Origin: Micromonospora sp. WMMD1102
GTDB taxonomy: Bacteria > Actinomycetota > Actinomycetes > Mycobacteriales > Micromonosporaceae
Direction of reading: 5' to 3'
DNA: 64,000 nucleotides
NCBI RefSeq assembly: GCF_029626265.1
Contig: NZ_JARUBN010000002.1
Span: 1 to 64,000, forward strand
A program made the translations under genes and the position numbers. Below the pieces are notes generated by a model that saw only the letters and a program-made list of their open reading frames with translations, ran no database searches and was not told the origin of the DNA. Position 1 is the first letter of the stretch; each line of letters starts with the position of its first letter. This document shows positions 6,066 through 16,823 of the stretch, piece by piece.

Positions 6066-6717
6066 ATGAGTTACACCGGCAACGTCGCCGCCGACGGCCC
6101 GCCCGACGTACGCGAGCTGAGCGGCCTCACGGTCAGCAAGCTCTCGGTCGGCCCGATGGACAACAACGCCTACCTGCTGCGCTGCACCGCCACCGGCGAG
6201 CAGGTCCTGATCGACGCGGCCAACGAGGCGCCCCGGCTGCTGGAACTCGTCGGCGAGGGCGGGCTGGCCGCCGTGGTCACCACGCACCGGCACATGGACC
6301 ACTGGGTCGCCCTGGAGGAGGTGGTGGCGAGCACCGGGGCCCGGTCGCTGGTGCACGCCGCCGACGCGGACGGCCTGCCGATCGACTCCGAGCCGCTCGC
6401 CGAGGGCGACCGGGTCCGGGTCGGTGACCGCGAACTCGAAGTGATCCACATCGTCGGGCACACCCCGGGCTCCGTCGCGCTGCTCTACCGGGACGAGACG
6501 GACGGCCTCCACCTGTTCACCGGCGACTCGCTCTTCCCCGGCGGGTCCTGGGAGGACAACTAACCCTGTCGAGTTTGCGCAGATCATGGACGACGTGGAG
6601 CACAAGATCTTCGATCGGCTGCCGGACGACACCTGGTTCTATCCGGGGCACGGCCGGGACAGCACGCTCGGCGCCGAGCGGCCGTCGCTACCGGAGTGGC
6701 GTGCCCGGGGCTGGTGA
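6066..6717 (+). pseudogene. MBL-fold metallo-hydrolase, frameshifted near 3' end
   Basis: Zinc-dependent metallo-beta-lactamase-fold hydrolase of the glyoxalase II-like type. The first frame shows THRHMDHW (HxHxDH metal box), VGHTPGSV (third His) and FTGDSLFPGG (bridging Asp), then stops at 6561-6563. The family's C-terminus continues in the +1 frame from about 6565: FAQIMDDVEHKIFDRLP, the last metal His in YPGHG, and the usual end LPEWRARGW, stop at 6715-6717. Removing one T at 6561 restores one frame through ...DNNPVEFAQI. This may be a true frameshift, a sequencing error, or the scar of recombination at the adjoining prophage end. Confidence 0.8.
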
Positions 6718-8937: not shown

Positions 8938-9153
8938 ATGGCTATACCGACGATACATGTCCCCCGAACGGCTGACGCACCCGCCTCCCCCGAACGGTCG
9001 TACTCGCCTGATCGCTTGATGGCTGAGACGTACCGGGCGCTGTGGGATCTGGGTCTGATCCCGGACGGGTCGAAGGTCGATCCGTACGCAACCGTGGCCG
9101 CCAGTGCCGATTTGCTGCGGGCGTTCGGCGTTACCCCGGCGGTGGGCGCGTGA
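8938..9153 (+). CDS. Hypothetical phage protein
   Basis: 71 residues, ATG start preceded by GAGAGG. It begins a long coupled run: its stop overlaps the GTG of the PP-loop gene as GTGA. The middle contains helical segments (DRLMAETYRALWDLGLI, YATVAASADLLRAFGV). No family recognised. The 81 bases upstream hold a weak hairpin (CGCCCG 8866-8871 with CGGGCG 8887-8892). Confidence 0.6.
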   Translation: MAIPTIHVPRTADAPASPERSYSPDRLMAETYRALWDLGLIPDGSKVDPYATVAASADLLRAFGVTPAVGA

Positions 9154-10244
9154 CCAGCCCGACGCTTCGGCTTCTGTCCCTCGGCGCCGGAGTGCAGTCC
9201 ACTGTCCTGGCCCTGATGACCGCCGATGGCACCCTGCCGAGGGTCGACGGTGCAATCTTCGCCGACACGGGCTGGGAGCCACGTCGGGTGTATAAGCATC
9301 TGGATCGGCTCGCAGTGGCACTCGGTGCGGCGGGTATCCCCCTCTATCGGGTTTCGAAGGGCAACCTGCGCAACGACGCAATCGATCCTGACCACGGCTT
9401 CGCGTCCATCCCGTACTACACCCAGGCACCTCCGAAGCCTTGTGTGGACTGCAACGCCACAGGGAAGATCGAAGACCCGGACCCGCTCATCAGTGACGAG
9501 CGGGGGGATGCCTTGCTCGTGAACTGTCCGCGTTGCCGGGGCACCGGCCGCGACGACGGTAGGGGAATGGGCCAGCGGCAGTGCACCAATCAGTACAAGC
9601 TCGCGTTGGTTCGCCGCAAGACCCGTGAGCTGCTTGGCGCGAAGGCACCCGCGTACCGGAGTGTGCCGCGCGGCCGTGTCGCGGAGACCTGGGTGGGGTT
9701 CTCTACCGACGAGATCGGCAGGGTGTCGGACGCGTACCCGGTGCTATATATCCGCAAGCGGTACCCGCTGCTGGATCTAGCCATGAACCGGAAGGCGTGC
9801 GAGCGGTGGTTGCGTGCACGCGGTTGGGGCTCGGTCGAGAAGAGTGCGTGCATCGGCTGTCCTCTCCACGGCAACCGGCAGTGGCGGGAACTGCGTGACC
9901 GCTGCGACTGCGGTCACCACATCAGCGGGCACCAGTCCGAACCGTTGGCCTACCCCGACGGGTGCCGAGCGATTGGCTGTGACTGCGACCGGTTCAAGAA
10001 TTCCGAGTGGCAAGACGCAGTCGCTTTTGACGAGGCGATCCGCCACGGGGGCGCCAACCCGTTACCCGAGGGGGTCCAGGCGTTCCTGCACAGCTCCCGC
10101 GTTCCGTTGTCCGTTGCGCGGATTGACCGCGTGACGTCCAAAGAGTGGGCAGATCGGTCACCAGACATCTTCGATGCGCTCGCTGAGCTAGGCGATCCGG
10201 ACGGCTGCTCGCCGTACGGCTGTCGTTCGGGGGTGGCCGCATGA
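9150..10244 (+). CDS. PP-loop (PAPS reductase-like) protein with zinc-binding inserts
   Basis: 364 residues from the GTG overlapping the previous stop. The N-terminus LSLGAGVQSTVLALM carries the SxGxxST PP-loop that binds ATP in PAPS reductase and adenine-nucleotide alpha hydrolases; FADTGWEP is the matching second motif. A DnaJ-like zinc insert follows (CVDC then CPRCRGTG). Later ACIGCP and a Cys-rich stretch beginning CDCGHH suggest more metal or Fe-S ligands. Such proteins are common in actinophages and their substrates are mostly unknown. Three small genes and a methyltransferase separate it from the transporter/dpdA pair, so a role in base modification is possible. It lacks the SGGxDST loop and C-terminal Cys set of QueC. 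Confidence 0.75.
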   Translation: MTSPTLRLLSLGAGVQSTVLALMTADGTLPRVDGAIFADTGWEPRRVYKHLDRLAVALGAAGIPLYRVSKGNLRNDAIDPDHGFASIPYYTQAPPKPCVDCNATGKIEDPDPLISDERGDALLVNCPRCRGTGRDDGRGMGQRQCTNQYKLALVRRKTRELLGAKAPAYRSVPRGRVAETWVGFSTDEIGRVSDAYPVLYIRKRYPLLDLAMNRKACERWLRARGWGSVEKSACIGCPLHGNRQWRELRDRCDCGHHISGHQSEPLAYPDGCRAIGCDCDRFKNSEWQDAVAFDEAIRHGGANPLPEGVQAFLHSSRVPLSVARIDRVTSKEWADRSPDIFDALAELGDPDGCSPYGCRSGVAA

Positions 10245-10710: not shown

Positions 10711-11111
10711 CTGCCGCGATGGTTTGCGCTTGGTGCGGACGCCAGTTGACCCGCTACATGTGCTGCTGGGAGCGCGGTTCGGAGATCCGACCGCCTATCG
10801 ACTTGGACCTTGGGGTGGCGTTGCAGTTCGGCTACCACCGACCGCCTGCCCGGGTTGTCAACGGCCCGCCGCACCTGCTGAACCAGTGGCCGTCGTCGCC
10901 GAGTGTCGCCGCAGCCGTTTCTGTCCTGCTGTCCGGTGGCGTGGTGTTGACGACGACGGAGTTGGCGTCGCGGTTGAACCTGACCGAGAGAGAGCGGCAG
11001 AACTATCTGTGGCCGGCGCTGGTTCAGATGACCCGGCTTGGTCGGGTGGAACGAGCGGCTGGTCGTCGGCATCCGCAGCCGGTGTCGTGGCGGTTGGCGG
11101 CGGTGGCGTGA
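10707..11111 (+). CDS. Zinc-finger/winged-helix-like phage protein
   Basis: 134 residues from the GTG at 10707. The N-terminus has CAWCGRQLTRYMCC, a probable zinc site. The C-terminal part (LTTTELASRLNLTERERQNYLW then ALVQMTRLGRVERAAG) reads like a winged helix with its wing. This looks like a small DNA-binding protein. It overlaps the methyltransferase start as TGATG. Confidence 0.55.
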   Translation: MTAAMVCAWCGRQLTRYMCCWERGSEIRPPIDLDLGVALQFGYHRPPARVVNGPPHLLNQWPSSPSVAAAVSVLLSGGVVLTTTELASRLNLTERERQNYLWPALVQMTRLGRVERAAGRRHPQPVSWRLAAVA

Positions 11112-11794
11112 TGGCTTCGCAAACGATCATCTACACCCTCGACCCGGCCCTGTCGTACTTCCCGACCCCGCCGGAAACCGCCGATGACCTCGTGTATCAG
11201 GCCCTCACTCCCGGCCACGGGCAAGGTGAGGCAGCGAACGGGGTACCGCAGGTACGAATACTGGAACCATCCGCCGGTGAGGGTCACCTAGCCCGTGCCG
11301 TCCGCGACTATCTGCCGTACGCGCATCTGACCGCTGTCGAGCCGAGTCCGCAGAGGGTGCCGGCACTTCACAACGTCGCCGACGTGGTGGTGGCGACGAC
11401 GTTGGAGGACTATCTCGTCACCGTCGCCATGACCGCGCTCGGCGGCGGTTGGGAGCCGTTCGACCTGGTGGTGATGAACCCGCCGTACACCTTGGCCGGC
11501 AGGCCGGAGGCGTGGGCGGAGCATCTGCTGGCCGTCGTCGAGGATCCGCATCTGCTTGCACCGGGAGGCATGGTTGCGGCGATCGTGCCGTGGGCTGTCG
11601 TGCGGGGTAAGTCGCGGCTGGCTCGCCGGGCACGCGACCTTCTCGGTGATGTGGTGGGCCGCTACTCCGACGGCGAGGTCATTTTCCGGCGGGGGCGGGT
11701 GCAGCCGTGCGAGCGGGGCGCGTTCGATCCGGTTGGAGCTGGGATTCGACCGGTGATGGTGTGGATCGAGAAGCCCTCGGCGGTGGCGCCGTGA
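11111..11794 (+). CDS. N6-adenine-type DNA methyltransferase
   Basis: 227 residues. Motif I for S-adenosylmethionine binding is ILEPSAGEGHLARAV near residues 52-66, and the catalytic box is VVMNPPY near residues 118-124, in the order of N6-adenine methyltransferases. The protein is a bare catalytic domain with no obvious target-recognition domain. In this position it probably methylates phage DNA as a solitary methyltransferase; no restriction enzyme gene is nearby. It lies just before the transporter and dpdA-like genes. Confidence 0.8.
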   Translation: MASQTIIYTLDPALSYFPTPPETADDLVYQALTPGHGQGEAANGVPQVRILEPSAGEGHLARAVRDYLPYAHLTAVEPSPQRVPALHNVADVVVATTLEDYLVTVAMTALGGGWEPFDLVVMNPPYTLAGRPEAWAEHLLAVVEDPHLLAPGGMVAAIVPWAVVRGKSRLARRARDLLGDVVGRYSDGEVIFRRGRVQPCERGAFDPVGAGIRPVMVWIEKPSAVAP

Positions 11795-12327
11795 GCCTCC
11801 GCATCGGGCCCGTCAACCGGCTCGCGTCAATCGCCGTCGTTGTCGTTGCCTACGTCGGCACAATCGTTGCCGCGAACTGGGCTGTCGCCACATACGGCGC
11901 CATCCCCGTTGGCTTCGGCCTGCTTGCTCCCGCCGGAGTGTTGTTCGCTGGCCTCGCGTTCACACTGCGGGACCTGCTTCACGACGCGGCTGGCCCGGTC
12001 TGGACAATCGCCGCGATCCTCGCCGGCACCGGTCTGTCGTTCGCGGTTGCCGGGCCGGGGCTCGCCATTGCGGCCGGGACTGCGTTCTTGGTTTCCGAGC
12101 TGGCCGACCTTGCCGTGTACGCGCCGCTACGTCGCCGTCGCTGGCTTCTCGCCGTTGCTCTATCCAACGTTGTTGGGCTGGTTGTCGACTCGGCGCTGTT
12201 TCTGTGGCTTGCGTTCGGCTCGCTGGTGTTCTTTCCCGGCCAGGTCGTCGGCAAGGCGTGGATGACCCTCGCCGCTGTCGCGGTCCTCGCGTTTGTTCGA
12301 GGCCGTCGTCGAGAGGCGGTGGCGTGA
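11791..12327 (+). CDS. VUT-family (YhhQ-like) transporter, probable 7-deazaguanine precursor importer
   Basis: 178 residues, GTG start overlapping the methyltransferase stop. The protein is strongly hydrophobic with about six membrane segments. The motif ANWAVATYGAIPVGFGLLAP and the FTLRDLLHDAAG loop fit the VUT/YhhQ family. Established members of that family take up queuosine precursors such as preQ0 and preQ1. Its stop overlaps the start of the dpdA-like gene, the enzyme that would use such a base. Transport of preQ0 here is inferred from family and context. Confidence 0.72.
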   Translation: MSLRIGPVNRLASIAVVVVAYVGTIVAANWAVATYGAIPVGFGLLAPAGVLFAGLAFTLRDLLHDAAGPVWTIAAILAGTGLSFAVAGPGLAIAAGTAFLVSELADLAVYAPLRRRRWLLAVALSNVVGLVVDSALFLWLAFGSLVFFPGQVVGKAWMTLAAVAVLAFVRGRRREAVA

Positions 12328-13166
12328 TGGACACCTGGTATCTCGGCGTCCACCGGTCGAACTGGCTCAGCGACCCACGACTAGCCGACGTTCCCGTGTT
12401 TATCTCCCGCAACGTGTTCCCGAAGGGCCGGTTCCCCCGTGCCGTCGGCCGGTATGCGATCGACTCCGGCGGCTTCACCGAACTCCAGTACCACGGCCGG
12501 TGGACGATCACTCCAGAGGAGTACGTGGCGTTCCTTCGCCGGGCGTGGACGGAGTGCGGCCCGTTCGACTTCGCCGCCCCGATGGACTGGATGTGCGAAG
12601 ACATCGTGATCCACGGCGGTCAGGCCGGGCCGCTGCGGTTCGTCGGCACTGGGCTTTCTGTTGTCGAGCATCAGCGGCTTACGGTCGCCAACTTCGTTGA
12701 ACTGCGCAGCCTCGCACCCGAGTTGCCGATCATTCCGGTTGTCCAGGGGCAGCGTCCGGCCGACTACGTGCGGCACGTCGAAATGTATGCCGACGCGGGT
12801 GTGGACCTCGGCGCGGCCCAGCTCGTCGGGGTTGGTTCGGTGTGTCGCCGGCAGCACATGGATGAAGCGGTCGACATCATGCAGGCGCTTCGGGATGTGG
12901 GTGTGTCGAACCTGCACGGTTTCGGGTTCAAGATTGAAGGACTTCGGGCGTGCTGGTTCGTGTTGCGGACTGCCGATTCGATGTCGTGGTCGTTCGACGG
13001 CAGGCACGCGGGTCCTTGCCAGCATCCGCCGTACGCCCGTGGTCGGCAGCCCCGATCTGAGGCGAACTGCCTGTCGTTCGCGTTGTCGTGGCGGAATCGT
13101 CACGTCGCTCCGCCCCGGCGGGTGCCGTCCCGGCAGCTTGCCCTGTTTGAGGCGGTGGCGGCATGA
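12327..13166 (+). CDS. DpdA-like TGT homologue, DNA 7-deazaguanine insertion
   Basis: 279 residues, TGATG overlap with the transporter gene. It is a tRNA-guanine transglycosylase-fold protein of the DpdA type: AIDSGGFTEL places the base-binding Asp at residue 46, FDFAAPMDW follows, QLVGVGSVCRR matches the GxGS region, and RTADSMSWS gives a second candidate catalytic Asp at residue 217. Cys and His residues in the C-terminal part (CQHPPYARG then ANC) may bind zinc. DpdA enzymes exchange guanine in DNA for preQ0 or a relative, which protects phage DNA from restriction. No preQ0 synthesis genes (folE, queD, queE, queC) are in view, so the base would come from host or medium. Confidence 0.8.
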   Translation: MDTWYLGVHRSNWLSDPRLADVPVFISRNVFPKGRFPRAVGRYAIDSGGFTELQYHGRWTITPEEYVAFLRRAWTECGPFDFAAPMDWMCEDIVIHGGQAGPLRFVGTGLSVVEHQRLTVANFVELRSLAPELPIIPVVQGQRPADYVRHVEMYADAGVDLGAAQLVGVGSVCRRQHMDEAVDIMQALRDVGVSNLHGFGFKIEGLRACWFVLRTADSMSWSFDGRHAGPCQHPPYARGRQPRSEANCLSFALSWRNRHVAPPRRVPSRQLALFEAVAA

Positions 13167-13465
13167 CTTGGCAGTGGATCGCGGCCAGCCTGGCGGTGTC
13201 CGCCCTCATGTATGCCGCCGGCCGTTTCGACTGGACCCGTTCGGGGCGTCGCCGGGTGTGGAGCGACGCTCGGGCGCACTTCGAGACCGAGACGCGGGCG
13301 CTGGTTCGGCAACTCCTCGACGACGAGCGGGAGTTGGCGTGGCGTCGCGAGGTCGAGCACGCCGAGATCCGCGACCCGCGCTGCTGGAGCAACGGTGCCG
13401 GCTACCGCTCGTCCCGCTCCCCCGATTCCCGGCCTGCGAAGGAGTCCTTCCATGCGTCTGCTTAG
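13163..13465 (+). CDS. Small membrane-anchored phage protein
   Basis: 100 residues, ATGA overlap with the dpdA-like gene. One N-terminal membrane segment (WIAASLAVSALMYAAG) is followed by a charged helical domain with many Arg and Glu residues. No family recognised. It starts a group of small membrane or secreted proteins that runs to 17866. Confidence 0.6.
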   Translation: MTWQWIAASLAVSALMYAAGRFDWTRSGRRRVWSDARAHFETETRALVRQLLDDERELAWRREVEHAEIRDPRCWSNGAGYRSSRSPDSRPAKESFHASA

Positions 13466-13799
13466 TGCTGTCGCGTTTGTGCTGGCCGGTGCCGCATGTG
13501 TGGCGGTCGGTGTGGTCGACGTGCGCCGTGGTGTGTCGCCGCCGGTTGATCCGGTGCCGCCTCGGGTGGTGTTCACCCTGCCGACGTGTGATGGCCTGCC
13601 TGCCCGGGTGGATGTCACGAACGTCAACGAGGCCCGGTATGTGCTGGTCGGCTTCAACGACGACCCGGCGTCGCAGATCGAGCCGGGCGGGTCCGTCGGG
13701 TTCGAGTTCGACTCCGGCGAGGTGCAGGTGATGGTCGACGGCCGCCCGCACGGACACCCGTACGTGTATCTGCCGCCGTCGTGCCTGCAACTCCCCTAA
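13452..13799 (+). CDS. Secreted hypothetical phage protein
   Basis: 115 residues from the ATG at 13452, with GAAGGAG upstream. The N-terminus is a signal peptide or anchor (LLSAVAFVLAGAACVAVGVV). The rest is a beta-rich domain with two Cys residues (TCDGL near residue 45, and SCLQL at the C-terminus) that could form a disulfide. No family recognised. It overlaps the previous gene by 14 bases. Confidence 0.6.
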   Translation: MRLLSAVAFVLAGAACVAVGVVDVRRGVSPPVDPVPPRVVFTLPTCDGLPARVDVTNVNEARYVLVGFNDDPASQIEPGGSVGFEFDSGEVQVMVDGRPHGHPYVYLPPSCLQLP

Positions 13800-13843
13800 C
13801 TCCCCGGCCTACCTGGGTTCGGGGTTACCCAACAAGGAGATCG

Positions 13844-14806
13844 ATGTTCACGCGAAAGCTGGCCGGTGCCGTCGCGGCGCTGGCCCTGATCGGCGGGGCG
13901 GCGCTCGTCGCTGCGGTGCCCGCCATGGCGACCGGTAACGGCGGTTGCCCGACCACCACCCTGACCGGCACGAGCGGTGTCACCACCTCCGGTGACGCGA
14001 CCGCGACGGTGACCGAAAACGGGCTGCGGATGCGAACCCCGGTCCGGGCGTCTCGTGTCCGGTTCGAGCAGCCGTACTCGAACGCGTTCGCGAACCTGAC
14101 CGGCCTGTCGTACCGGACGTTCACCCACTCCGACGGGGACCGTGGTTTCGCGACTGTCGCCGCCCGGGTCGGTCTGGACACCAACGGGGACGCGAAGACC
14201 GATGTGACGTTGGTGTACGAGCCGTACTACAACGCCACCCTCGTCGAGGGCGAGTGGCAGTCGTGGGACACGGTCGCGGCCGGCGCCGGGAAGTGGTGGT
14301 GGGCGGAGGAACCGGGGAACCCGCAGACGCCTCGCCCGTGGTCGCACTGGCAGGACACGCATTCGGATGCGGTGCTGACGTTCGTCAACGTCGGGATGGG
14401 CACCTGGAACGAGGGTGCGGATGCGCGGGTGGATGACCTGCGGGTGTCGGTGAAGGGGCACGGGTGCAAGCGGTTCGGGTGGAAGAAGCCCGACCCGTCG
14501 CCGTCTGCGACCGGGTCCGCCACCCCGTCGGCGACGCCGACCAGGACTGCGGAGCCGACTCCGACCGCGACTGCTTCCCCGACTGCTACCGGTGAGCCGA
14601 CGTCGGAGCCGACCGGTACGCCGTCCGGGTCGGCGGAGCCTGAGCCGACGTTCTCGCCGTCGCCGGCCGCCGGTGGCGGTGGTGGTTTGCCGCTCACGGG
14701 GGCGCCGGTGTGGGTGTACGCACTCGCAGGGCTGGCGGTACTTCTGATCGGCACGGCCGCGTACCTGCTGGCCCGCCGTCGAAACGAGCCGACGTTCACG
14801 GCCTGA
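13844..14806 (+). CDS. LPXTG-anchored surface protein
   Basis: 320 residues, ATG start with AAGGAGA upstream. It has an N-terminal Sec signal peptide (LAGAVAALALIGGAALVAA), a beta-rich extracellular domain of about 180 residues, a Ser/Thr/Pro/Glu-rich stalk from about residue 215, then LPLTG, a membrane span and an RRRNE tail. That order is the standard sortase substrate. The protein would be attached to the host cell wall in the lysogen. The ligand is unknown; superinfection exclusion or lysogenic conversion are possible roles. A strong hairpin follows the gene. Confidence 0.85.
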   Translation: MFTRKLAGAVAALALIGGAALVAAVPAMATGNGGCPTTTLTGTSGVTTSGDATATVTENGLRMRTPVRASRVRFEQPYSNAFANLTGLSYRTFTHSDGDRGFATVAARVGLDTNGDAKTDVTLVYEPYYNATLVEGEWQSWDTVAAGAGKWWWAEEPGNPQTPRPWSHWQDTHSDAVLTFVNVGMGTWNEGADARVDDLRVSVKGHGCKRFGWKKPDPSPSATGSATPSATPTRTAEPTPTATASPTATGEPTSEPTGTPSGSAEPEPTFSPSPAAGGGGGLPLTGAPVWVYALAGLAVLLIGTAAYLLARRRNEPTFTA

Positions 14807-16575: not shown

Positions 16576-16823
16576 TCGGCGAGTGGTGGATGTTGGTGGG
16601 GGTTGGGCTCATGGTTGTCGGTGCTGGCCTGCTGGTGCTGGTTTCTCGCCGGGCTCGGGGACGGCGTGTGCAGCGGGCTCGGGTTGCCGCCCGGTGGGTT
16701 GCGTACCGGCAGGGGCCGGAACCGCTGCCGCCGGTGCGGGCCGGGGTGTATCGGGGTGTTCCGGTGCGGGACCGGGACGCGACGGCGGTCATGGCCCGAA
16801 TTCCGGGTGGTGGCCGTGGCTAG
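16572..16823 (+). CDS. Small membrane protein
   Basis: 83 residues, GTG overlap with the previous stop. An N-terminal span (WWMLVGVGLMVVGAGLLVLV) is followed by a strongly basic stretch (SRRARGRRVQRARVAARW). The layout matches the gene before it, which suggests related roles, though the sequences are not clearly alike. Confidence 0.55.
   Translation: MIGEWWMLVGVGLMVVGAGLLVLVSRRARGRRVQRARVAARWVAYRQGPEPLPPVRAGVYRGVPVRDRDATAVMARIPGGGRG

Follow-up and report, generated by a model that had tools for sequence, protein, structure and literature searches.

A transporter gene and a DpdA gene in a Micromonospora prophage

We analysed the first 64 kb (64,000 nucleotides, here called the window) of a 131,506 b contig of Micromonospora sp. 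WMMD1102, from an assembly of 8.92 Mb in 8 contigs. The subject is a pair of adjoining genes that a preliminary description, made from the letters of the window, had read as a transporter (VUT) and a DpdA-like enzyme which together salvage a 7-deazaguanine base for the DNA of a prophage. Both genes were found at the coordinates given in that description:

11791..12327, + strand: VUT / QPTR-like membrane transporter, 178 aa; GTG start at 11791, TGA ending at 12327
12327..13166, + strand: DpdA, predicted TGT-fold base-exchange enzyme, 279 aa; ATG start at 12327, TGA ending at 13166

Re-reading of the junction (TGATG) returned the same one-base overlap between the two genes, suggesting that VUT and DpdA are co-translated. 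In profile searches the downstream protein matched PF23859 (DeoxyPurine in DNA protein A) over residues 3–261, with 217.1 bits against a gathering cut-off of 27 (E 3.3e-64), as well as phrog_1279 (E 6.7e-71), in agreement with the family first assigned to it. The TGT fold proposed for the 279-residue protein was recovered in a predicted structure (pLDDT 92.8), for which Foldseek ranked first 7ui4, the solved DNA preQ0 insertase DpdA, while a sequence search of solved structures returned no relevant match (best E 0.71, an ATP synthase). Asp46, Asp87, His197 and Asp217 were invariant in 47 of 47 aligned sequences; among them are the two aspartates on which the preliminary description had made its reading depend, Asp46 and Asp217, which from their motifs are the probable catalytic pair.

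The upstream protein matched Vut_1 (PF02592) with 35 bits against a gathering cut-off of 27.2, over profile positions 65–135 of 152, and phrog_4899 across most of its length (E 2.6e-36), with hydrophobic segments spread along the protein. The earlier assignment to this transporter family therefore held in profile searches; a sequence search of solved structures gave no match for VUT, and PADLOC matched neither VUT nor DpdA.

Genes for a terminase, a portal, a head protein, a replicative helicase, a processivity factor and a RecE-like protein were present around the pair, and a direct repeat was found at either end of this region, with its left copy in the window:

6589..6717, no strand: left copy of a 129 b direct repeat, taken as the left prophage end

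The right copy, at contig positions 123110–123238, is identical to the left at 123 of 129 positions and adjoins a gene for a 516-residue serine recombinase. Together, the structural genes, the repeat and the recombinase uphold the prophage setting described before, and suggest an integrated temperate tailed phage of about 116 kb whose ends the repeat would mark. At window 6066–6717, a metallo-beta-lactamase-fold gene (PF00753 E 6.9e-12) is followed by the left copy, and the end of this gene may thus have been the site of phage entry.

A search with purpose-built models of QueC, QueD (two models), QueE and FolE gave 0 matches at E 0.1 over the whole 131.5 kb contig, and the reported lack of preQ0 synthesis genes was thus extended to its full length. 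Having dpdA and no synthesis gene found, the contig belongs with the DpdA-only phages (group 3 of PMC6884629). The host assembly carries one PTPS gene, with no match to QueC or TGT and no further match to Vut_1. Among 250 genomes of the host's family, TGT was matched in 16 (8 with E <1e-40) and QueC in 141 (36 with at least 80 bits); since TGT is absent from the host and rare among its relatives, queuosine-tRNA biology looks rare in this family. The assembly holds three DpdA genes in all, the second at G000 C1:6560981-6561763 (L001) and the third at C1:613837-614634 (L003); by eye, one of these two stands between primase-like and DUF3631-like frames and the other after a DNA methylase-like frame, and the stretches examined around them contained no VUT.

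Recurrence of the VUT-TGT pairing

Among annotated phages, 24 records carry a relative of the window VUT. We examined eight of these, and in seven (StevieRay, RHph_X2_30, RHph_N3_2, Pam5, Aoka, phiLM21 and ReqiPine5) a TGT-type gene lay within 500 b of the transporter, belonging to phrog_1279 in one phage, to phrog_887 in three and to phrog_15826 in three. The Pfam DpdA model was matched by the partner enzyme of phiLM21 only, and the TGT link of the other six comes from PHROG names, annotators' labels and one model. The eighth record, a contig of faecal origin (L012, MT837598.1) listed under the name 'Bacteriophage sp.', carries a VUT and gave no match to the three enzyme models; it looks like a piece of a bacterial chromosome, and its neighbouring frames are, by eye, ferrochelatase-, GrpE- and DnaK-like.

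A scan of viral contigs with the window VUT found 149 relatives, of which the best 80 were analysed. A TGT-type gene from one or another of the three families was present within 600 b of VUT at 77 of these 80 loci, on the same strand at 75, as counted from domain coordinates, and the three exceptions were a preQ0 operon (L014) and two loci in which VUT stands at the contig end (L052 and L058). As a yardstick, a PAPS-like gene occurred within 600 b of VUT at 1 of the 80 loci. This PAPS-like PP-loop gene had itself been considered as a constant third partner and was rejected, as it reached no more than 2 of 80 loci at that distance under a looser model and was seen no more than 4 kb from the enzyme at 4, 6 and 1 of 80 loci. 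When the search was started from the enzyme side, VUT was found within 1 kb, and always on the same strand, at 29 of 80 loci for the window's DpdA family, 50 of 80 for phrog_15826 and 28 of 80 for phrog_887.

In the 250 genomes of the host's family, phrog_4899 was matched in 12, and in 10 of the 12, that of the window included, a TGT-type gene was the neighbour; in one of them, G627, both the VUT and the TGT-type genes are in pieces. A phylum-wide survey, with phrog_4899 matches in 65 of 396 genomes that mostly score like ordinary host transporters and neighbours checked for a minority of them, was set aside for the family-wide one. The partner enzyme family switches 20 times on a quick tree of 117 VUTs, in which support is below 80 on 49 of 114 inner branches. 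Taken together, the viral loci, the phage records and the family genomes support the view that transporter and transglycosylase form one unit, as previously proposed, on comparative data that exceed the evidence then at hand, and similar pairs are seen repeatedly in phages unrelated to one another.

Possible import and synthesis of the base

Both members of the pair have relatives next to preQ0 synthesis genes. The operon at L014 runs queC, VUT, queD, a queE-like radical SAM gene, which scores below the Pfam cut-off, and what by eye is a folE-like stretch, and its VUT is 66% identical to that of the window; further on lies a 317-residue protein with TGT-like motifs by eye and no Pfam match. 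At L149, a DpdA of the window's family (PF23859 E 4.3e-84) has a queD match at a distance of 24 b and a queC match at 398 b, and at L153 a PF23859 DpdA stands 11 b from queC. Whole-record searches of 50 records (seven phages and 43 of the 80 viral contigs), many of which are fragments, gave QueC over the cut-off in two and PTPS in one. At L062:7085-7939 a single frame, which opens with the first part of a compact TGT-type protein and runs on into a QueC domain (PF06508 E 1.7e-40), stands directly before VUT. Many phrog_887 enzymes adjoin a short PTPS-like protein (L307:7675-8004 and alike; PF01242 20.8 bits, cut-off 22.4), possibly a divergent QueD.

Four viral scans yielded 318 loci, 315 of which matched one of the three enzyme models; these were reduced to 208 at 80% identity and to 125 with at least 4 kb on both sides. 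Each scan contributed its best 80 matches only and the queries were partly picked for having VUT, so the counts favour loci with VUT. Of the 125 loci, 1 had both transporter and synthesis genes, 62 the transporter only, 18 synthesis genes only and 44 neither (Fisher p 9.4e-6); before the short PTPS-like gene was added to the synthesis models, the corresponding counts were 1, 62, 12 and 50 (p 0.001). Taken in the same order, the counts were 0, 25, 7 and 9 for phrog_15826 (p 5e-4) and 1, 16, 9 and 11 for phrog_887 (p 0.01). In these sequence counts, a transporter and synthesis genes seem to replace each other near TGT-type enzymes. Both were present at L062, L276 and L365 in the unfiltered set of 315, and at L014 besides. 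Around the loci with neither, the twelve largest neighbour groups yielded no other conspicuous shared membrane protein.

Proposed function of the pair and its neighbours

We consider it probable, at roughly 0.65, that in this pair a temperate tailed phage carries a base-exchange cassette of the salvage type, a reading drawn from sequence and predicted structure. VUT would bring a free 7-deazaguanine base, with preQ0 the likeliest candidate, into a host lacking QueC, and DpdA, with Asp46 and Asp217 in its active site, would exchange guanine in phage DNA for the imported base by the TGT mechanism; the modified phage DNA may then resist some host nucleases. Much of the preliminary interpretation is retained here, namely the two families, the overlap, the fold, the Asp residues, the prophage, the absence of synthesis genes from the contig and the single unit, while the transported base, the exchange reaction, DNA as the target and the shielding are what we infer from these. 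The weak points of the reading are the chemistry and the DNA target.

Precursor import by phages has already been proposed in print: in PMC6884629, uptake is named as an option for DpdA-only phages and phage YhhQ homologues are given as uncorrelated with any phage group, and the MED16 paper raises uptake for a dpdA-only phage with dADG in its DNA (PMC8306585). A preQ0/preQ1 transporter lies inside the synthesis cluster of Vid5 (PMC6266253) and of EC151 (PMC8310023), and YhhQ lies beside the pathway in HCTV-1 and HCTV-16 (PMC8651126). These phages resemble the window in their Vut_1/YhhQ-type transporter proposed for preQ0 salvage, but theirs accompanies synthesis genes, whereas that of the window would stand in for them. 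Rosebush and CAjan have a DpdA-type enzyme, for which insertion of preQ0 into their DNA has been proposed, and dPreQ0 was measured there (PMC6884629); they have preQ0 synthesis genes, whereas the window contig yielded no synthesis gene and its transporter overlaps dpdA instead. Bacterial dpd islands, about 9% of them with YhhQ, likewise combine a DpdA-type enzyme with a transporter as a possible precursor source (PMC11888242), but carry dpdB, dpdC and often restriction genes, none of which was recognised by the window pair, where dpdB–dpdK models were not run. In the literature available in part, we found no paper on a recurrent transporter-plus-TGT cassette lacking synthesis genes; this absence is weak. 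A stretch in another genome of the host's family (G510 C93:142126-150481), in which some 8 kb take in a phage-type VUT, a strong QueC and a weak match to TGT, is perhaps a bacterial dpd-like island with a transporter.

Several results weigh against the salvage reading, and three alternatives were considered. Mycobacterium phage Orion has DpdA, no synthesis genes and a host lacking the pathway, and its DNA is free of 7-deazaguanine; Salmonella phage 7-11, of the same group 3, does have a little dADG in its DNA, so that the published results point both ways (PMC6884629). Both resemble the window in having DpdA without synthesis genes, to which the window adds a transporter in the same gene run. 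Orion probably bears the window's DpdA family, and a search with the window DpdA finds 399 phage records, 391 of them Mycobacterium phages. The family is without VUT in many phages: in Nibb, UncleHowie, BoostSeason and Streptomyces phage Gilgamesh, which are outside the 24 VUT-bearing records, there was no VUT match within 3–4 kb on either side of DpdA, and 47 of 80 loci of this family had room on both sides but no VUT. The enzyme might then be idle or have another job, as may hold for stand-alone mycobacteriophage DpdAs, with VUT supplying nothing that reaches DNA. An idle enzyme does fit Orion, but the lack of a pathway in both its host and its genome means that want of substrate explains the unmodified DNA as well; the active-site residues are moreover invariant in all aligned sequences, and it would be difficult to explain why VUT is joined time and again to three enzyme families unless they had a substrate in common. 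We hold this alternative to be improbable.

The fold comparison likewise leaves room for another target, since DpdA ties with the archaeosine tRNA TGT and DNA is not singled out. VUT could import a queuosine precursor that the enzyme puts into host or phage tRNA, tuning translation in infection. Against this, the top Foldseek match is the DNA preQ0 insertase, the protein falls in PF23859, and the host itself has no TGT, an enzyme found, as noted above, in few genomes of its family and strongly in only half of those. An RNA target seems to us unlikely, if the least unlikely of the three alternatives.

On the transporter side, VUT fails the curated models, scoring 34.1 bits against a cut-off of 50.95 for TIGR00697 (queuosine precursor transporter equivalog) and 29 against 252 bits for PRK11212; because of the former it is filed here as Vut_1-like and not as a TIGR00697 equivalog. 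This distance would suit a carrier of another purine or a vitamin, coupled to an enzyme that exchanges a base outside the 7-deazaguanine group, but L014 has the VUT subfamily within a preQ0 operon, L149 has queD and queC next to a DpdA of the window's family, and we give this alternative the least credence.

Further points against salvage come from the genomic comparisons. QueC was matched with at least 80 bits in 3 of the 10 pair-bearing genomes of the host's family (G457, G512 and G552), so the pairing does not require a QueC-less host. For the window's DpdA family, the counts of both, transporter only, synthesis only and neither were 0, 21, 2 and 24, and the trade-off was not significant (p 0.49). 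When kinship was controlled, phrog_15826 and phrog_887 gave 8 independent pairs on supported branches, in which synthesis was opposite in 2.4 and the same in 0.0 on average (median sign-test p 0.5), and the window's family gave 4 pairs with 0.1 opposite (p 1); with this control the direction of the trade-off is consistent and not significant.

If the salvage reading is right, the importer would answer how pathway-less DpdA phages in hosts unable to make the base obtain their substrate, would link the protection of phage DNA to the shared metabolites of soil and water, and would allow one to predict which of the DpdA phages carry modified DNA, and in which growth conditions. We give an even chance to a broader proposal, that this is a widespread phage strategy assembled many times from one importer subfamily and any of three TGT-type enzymes, compact forms of about 205–230 residues among them, replacing preQ0 synthesis. 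The make-up of phage DNA would in that case depend on bases released by neighbouring microbes, as a community-bought epigenetic shield, which could account for some of the phages equipped with a base-exchange enzyme and lacking the pathway. StevieRay, Aoka, phiLM21, Pam5 and ReqiPine5 are characterised phages with such pairs.

The gene run exceeds the pair of the preliminary description, as an open reading frame (ORF) on either side overlaps it by 4 b:

11111..11794, + strand: methyltransferase-like ORF upstream of VUT, at most a candidate member of the module, 4 b overlap with VUT
13163..13465, + strand: small ORF after DpdA, at most a candidate member of the module, 4 b overlap with DpdA

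The small ORF had no PHROG match at E 1. The upstream ORF matched the phrog_799 DNA methyltransferase (E 3.5e-9), with Pfam matches below the cut-off and an NPPY motif by eye. Window positions 9129–10244 encode a PP-loop (PAPS reductase-like) protein of phrog_424 (E 4.9e-33) that contains a cysteine-rich insert. In Aoka and ReqiPine5, too, genes of phrog_424 lie close to the pair, and Gilgamesh has a PAPS-like gene close to its DpdA. Elsewhere in the prophage, its early gene run includes a surface-protein-like ORF with an LPXTG-type anchor (window 13781–14806; TIGR01167 22.3 bits, cut-off 15.9), and a tRNA-Gly (gcc) gene lies at window 16698–16784.
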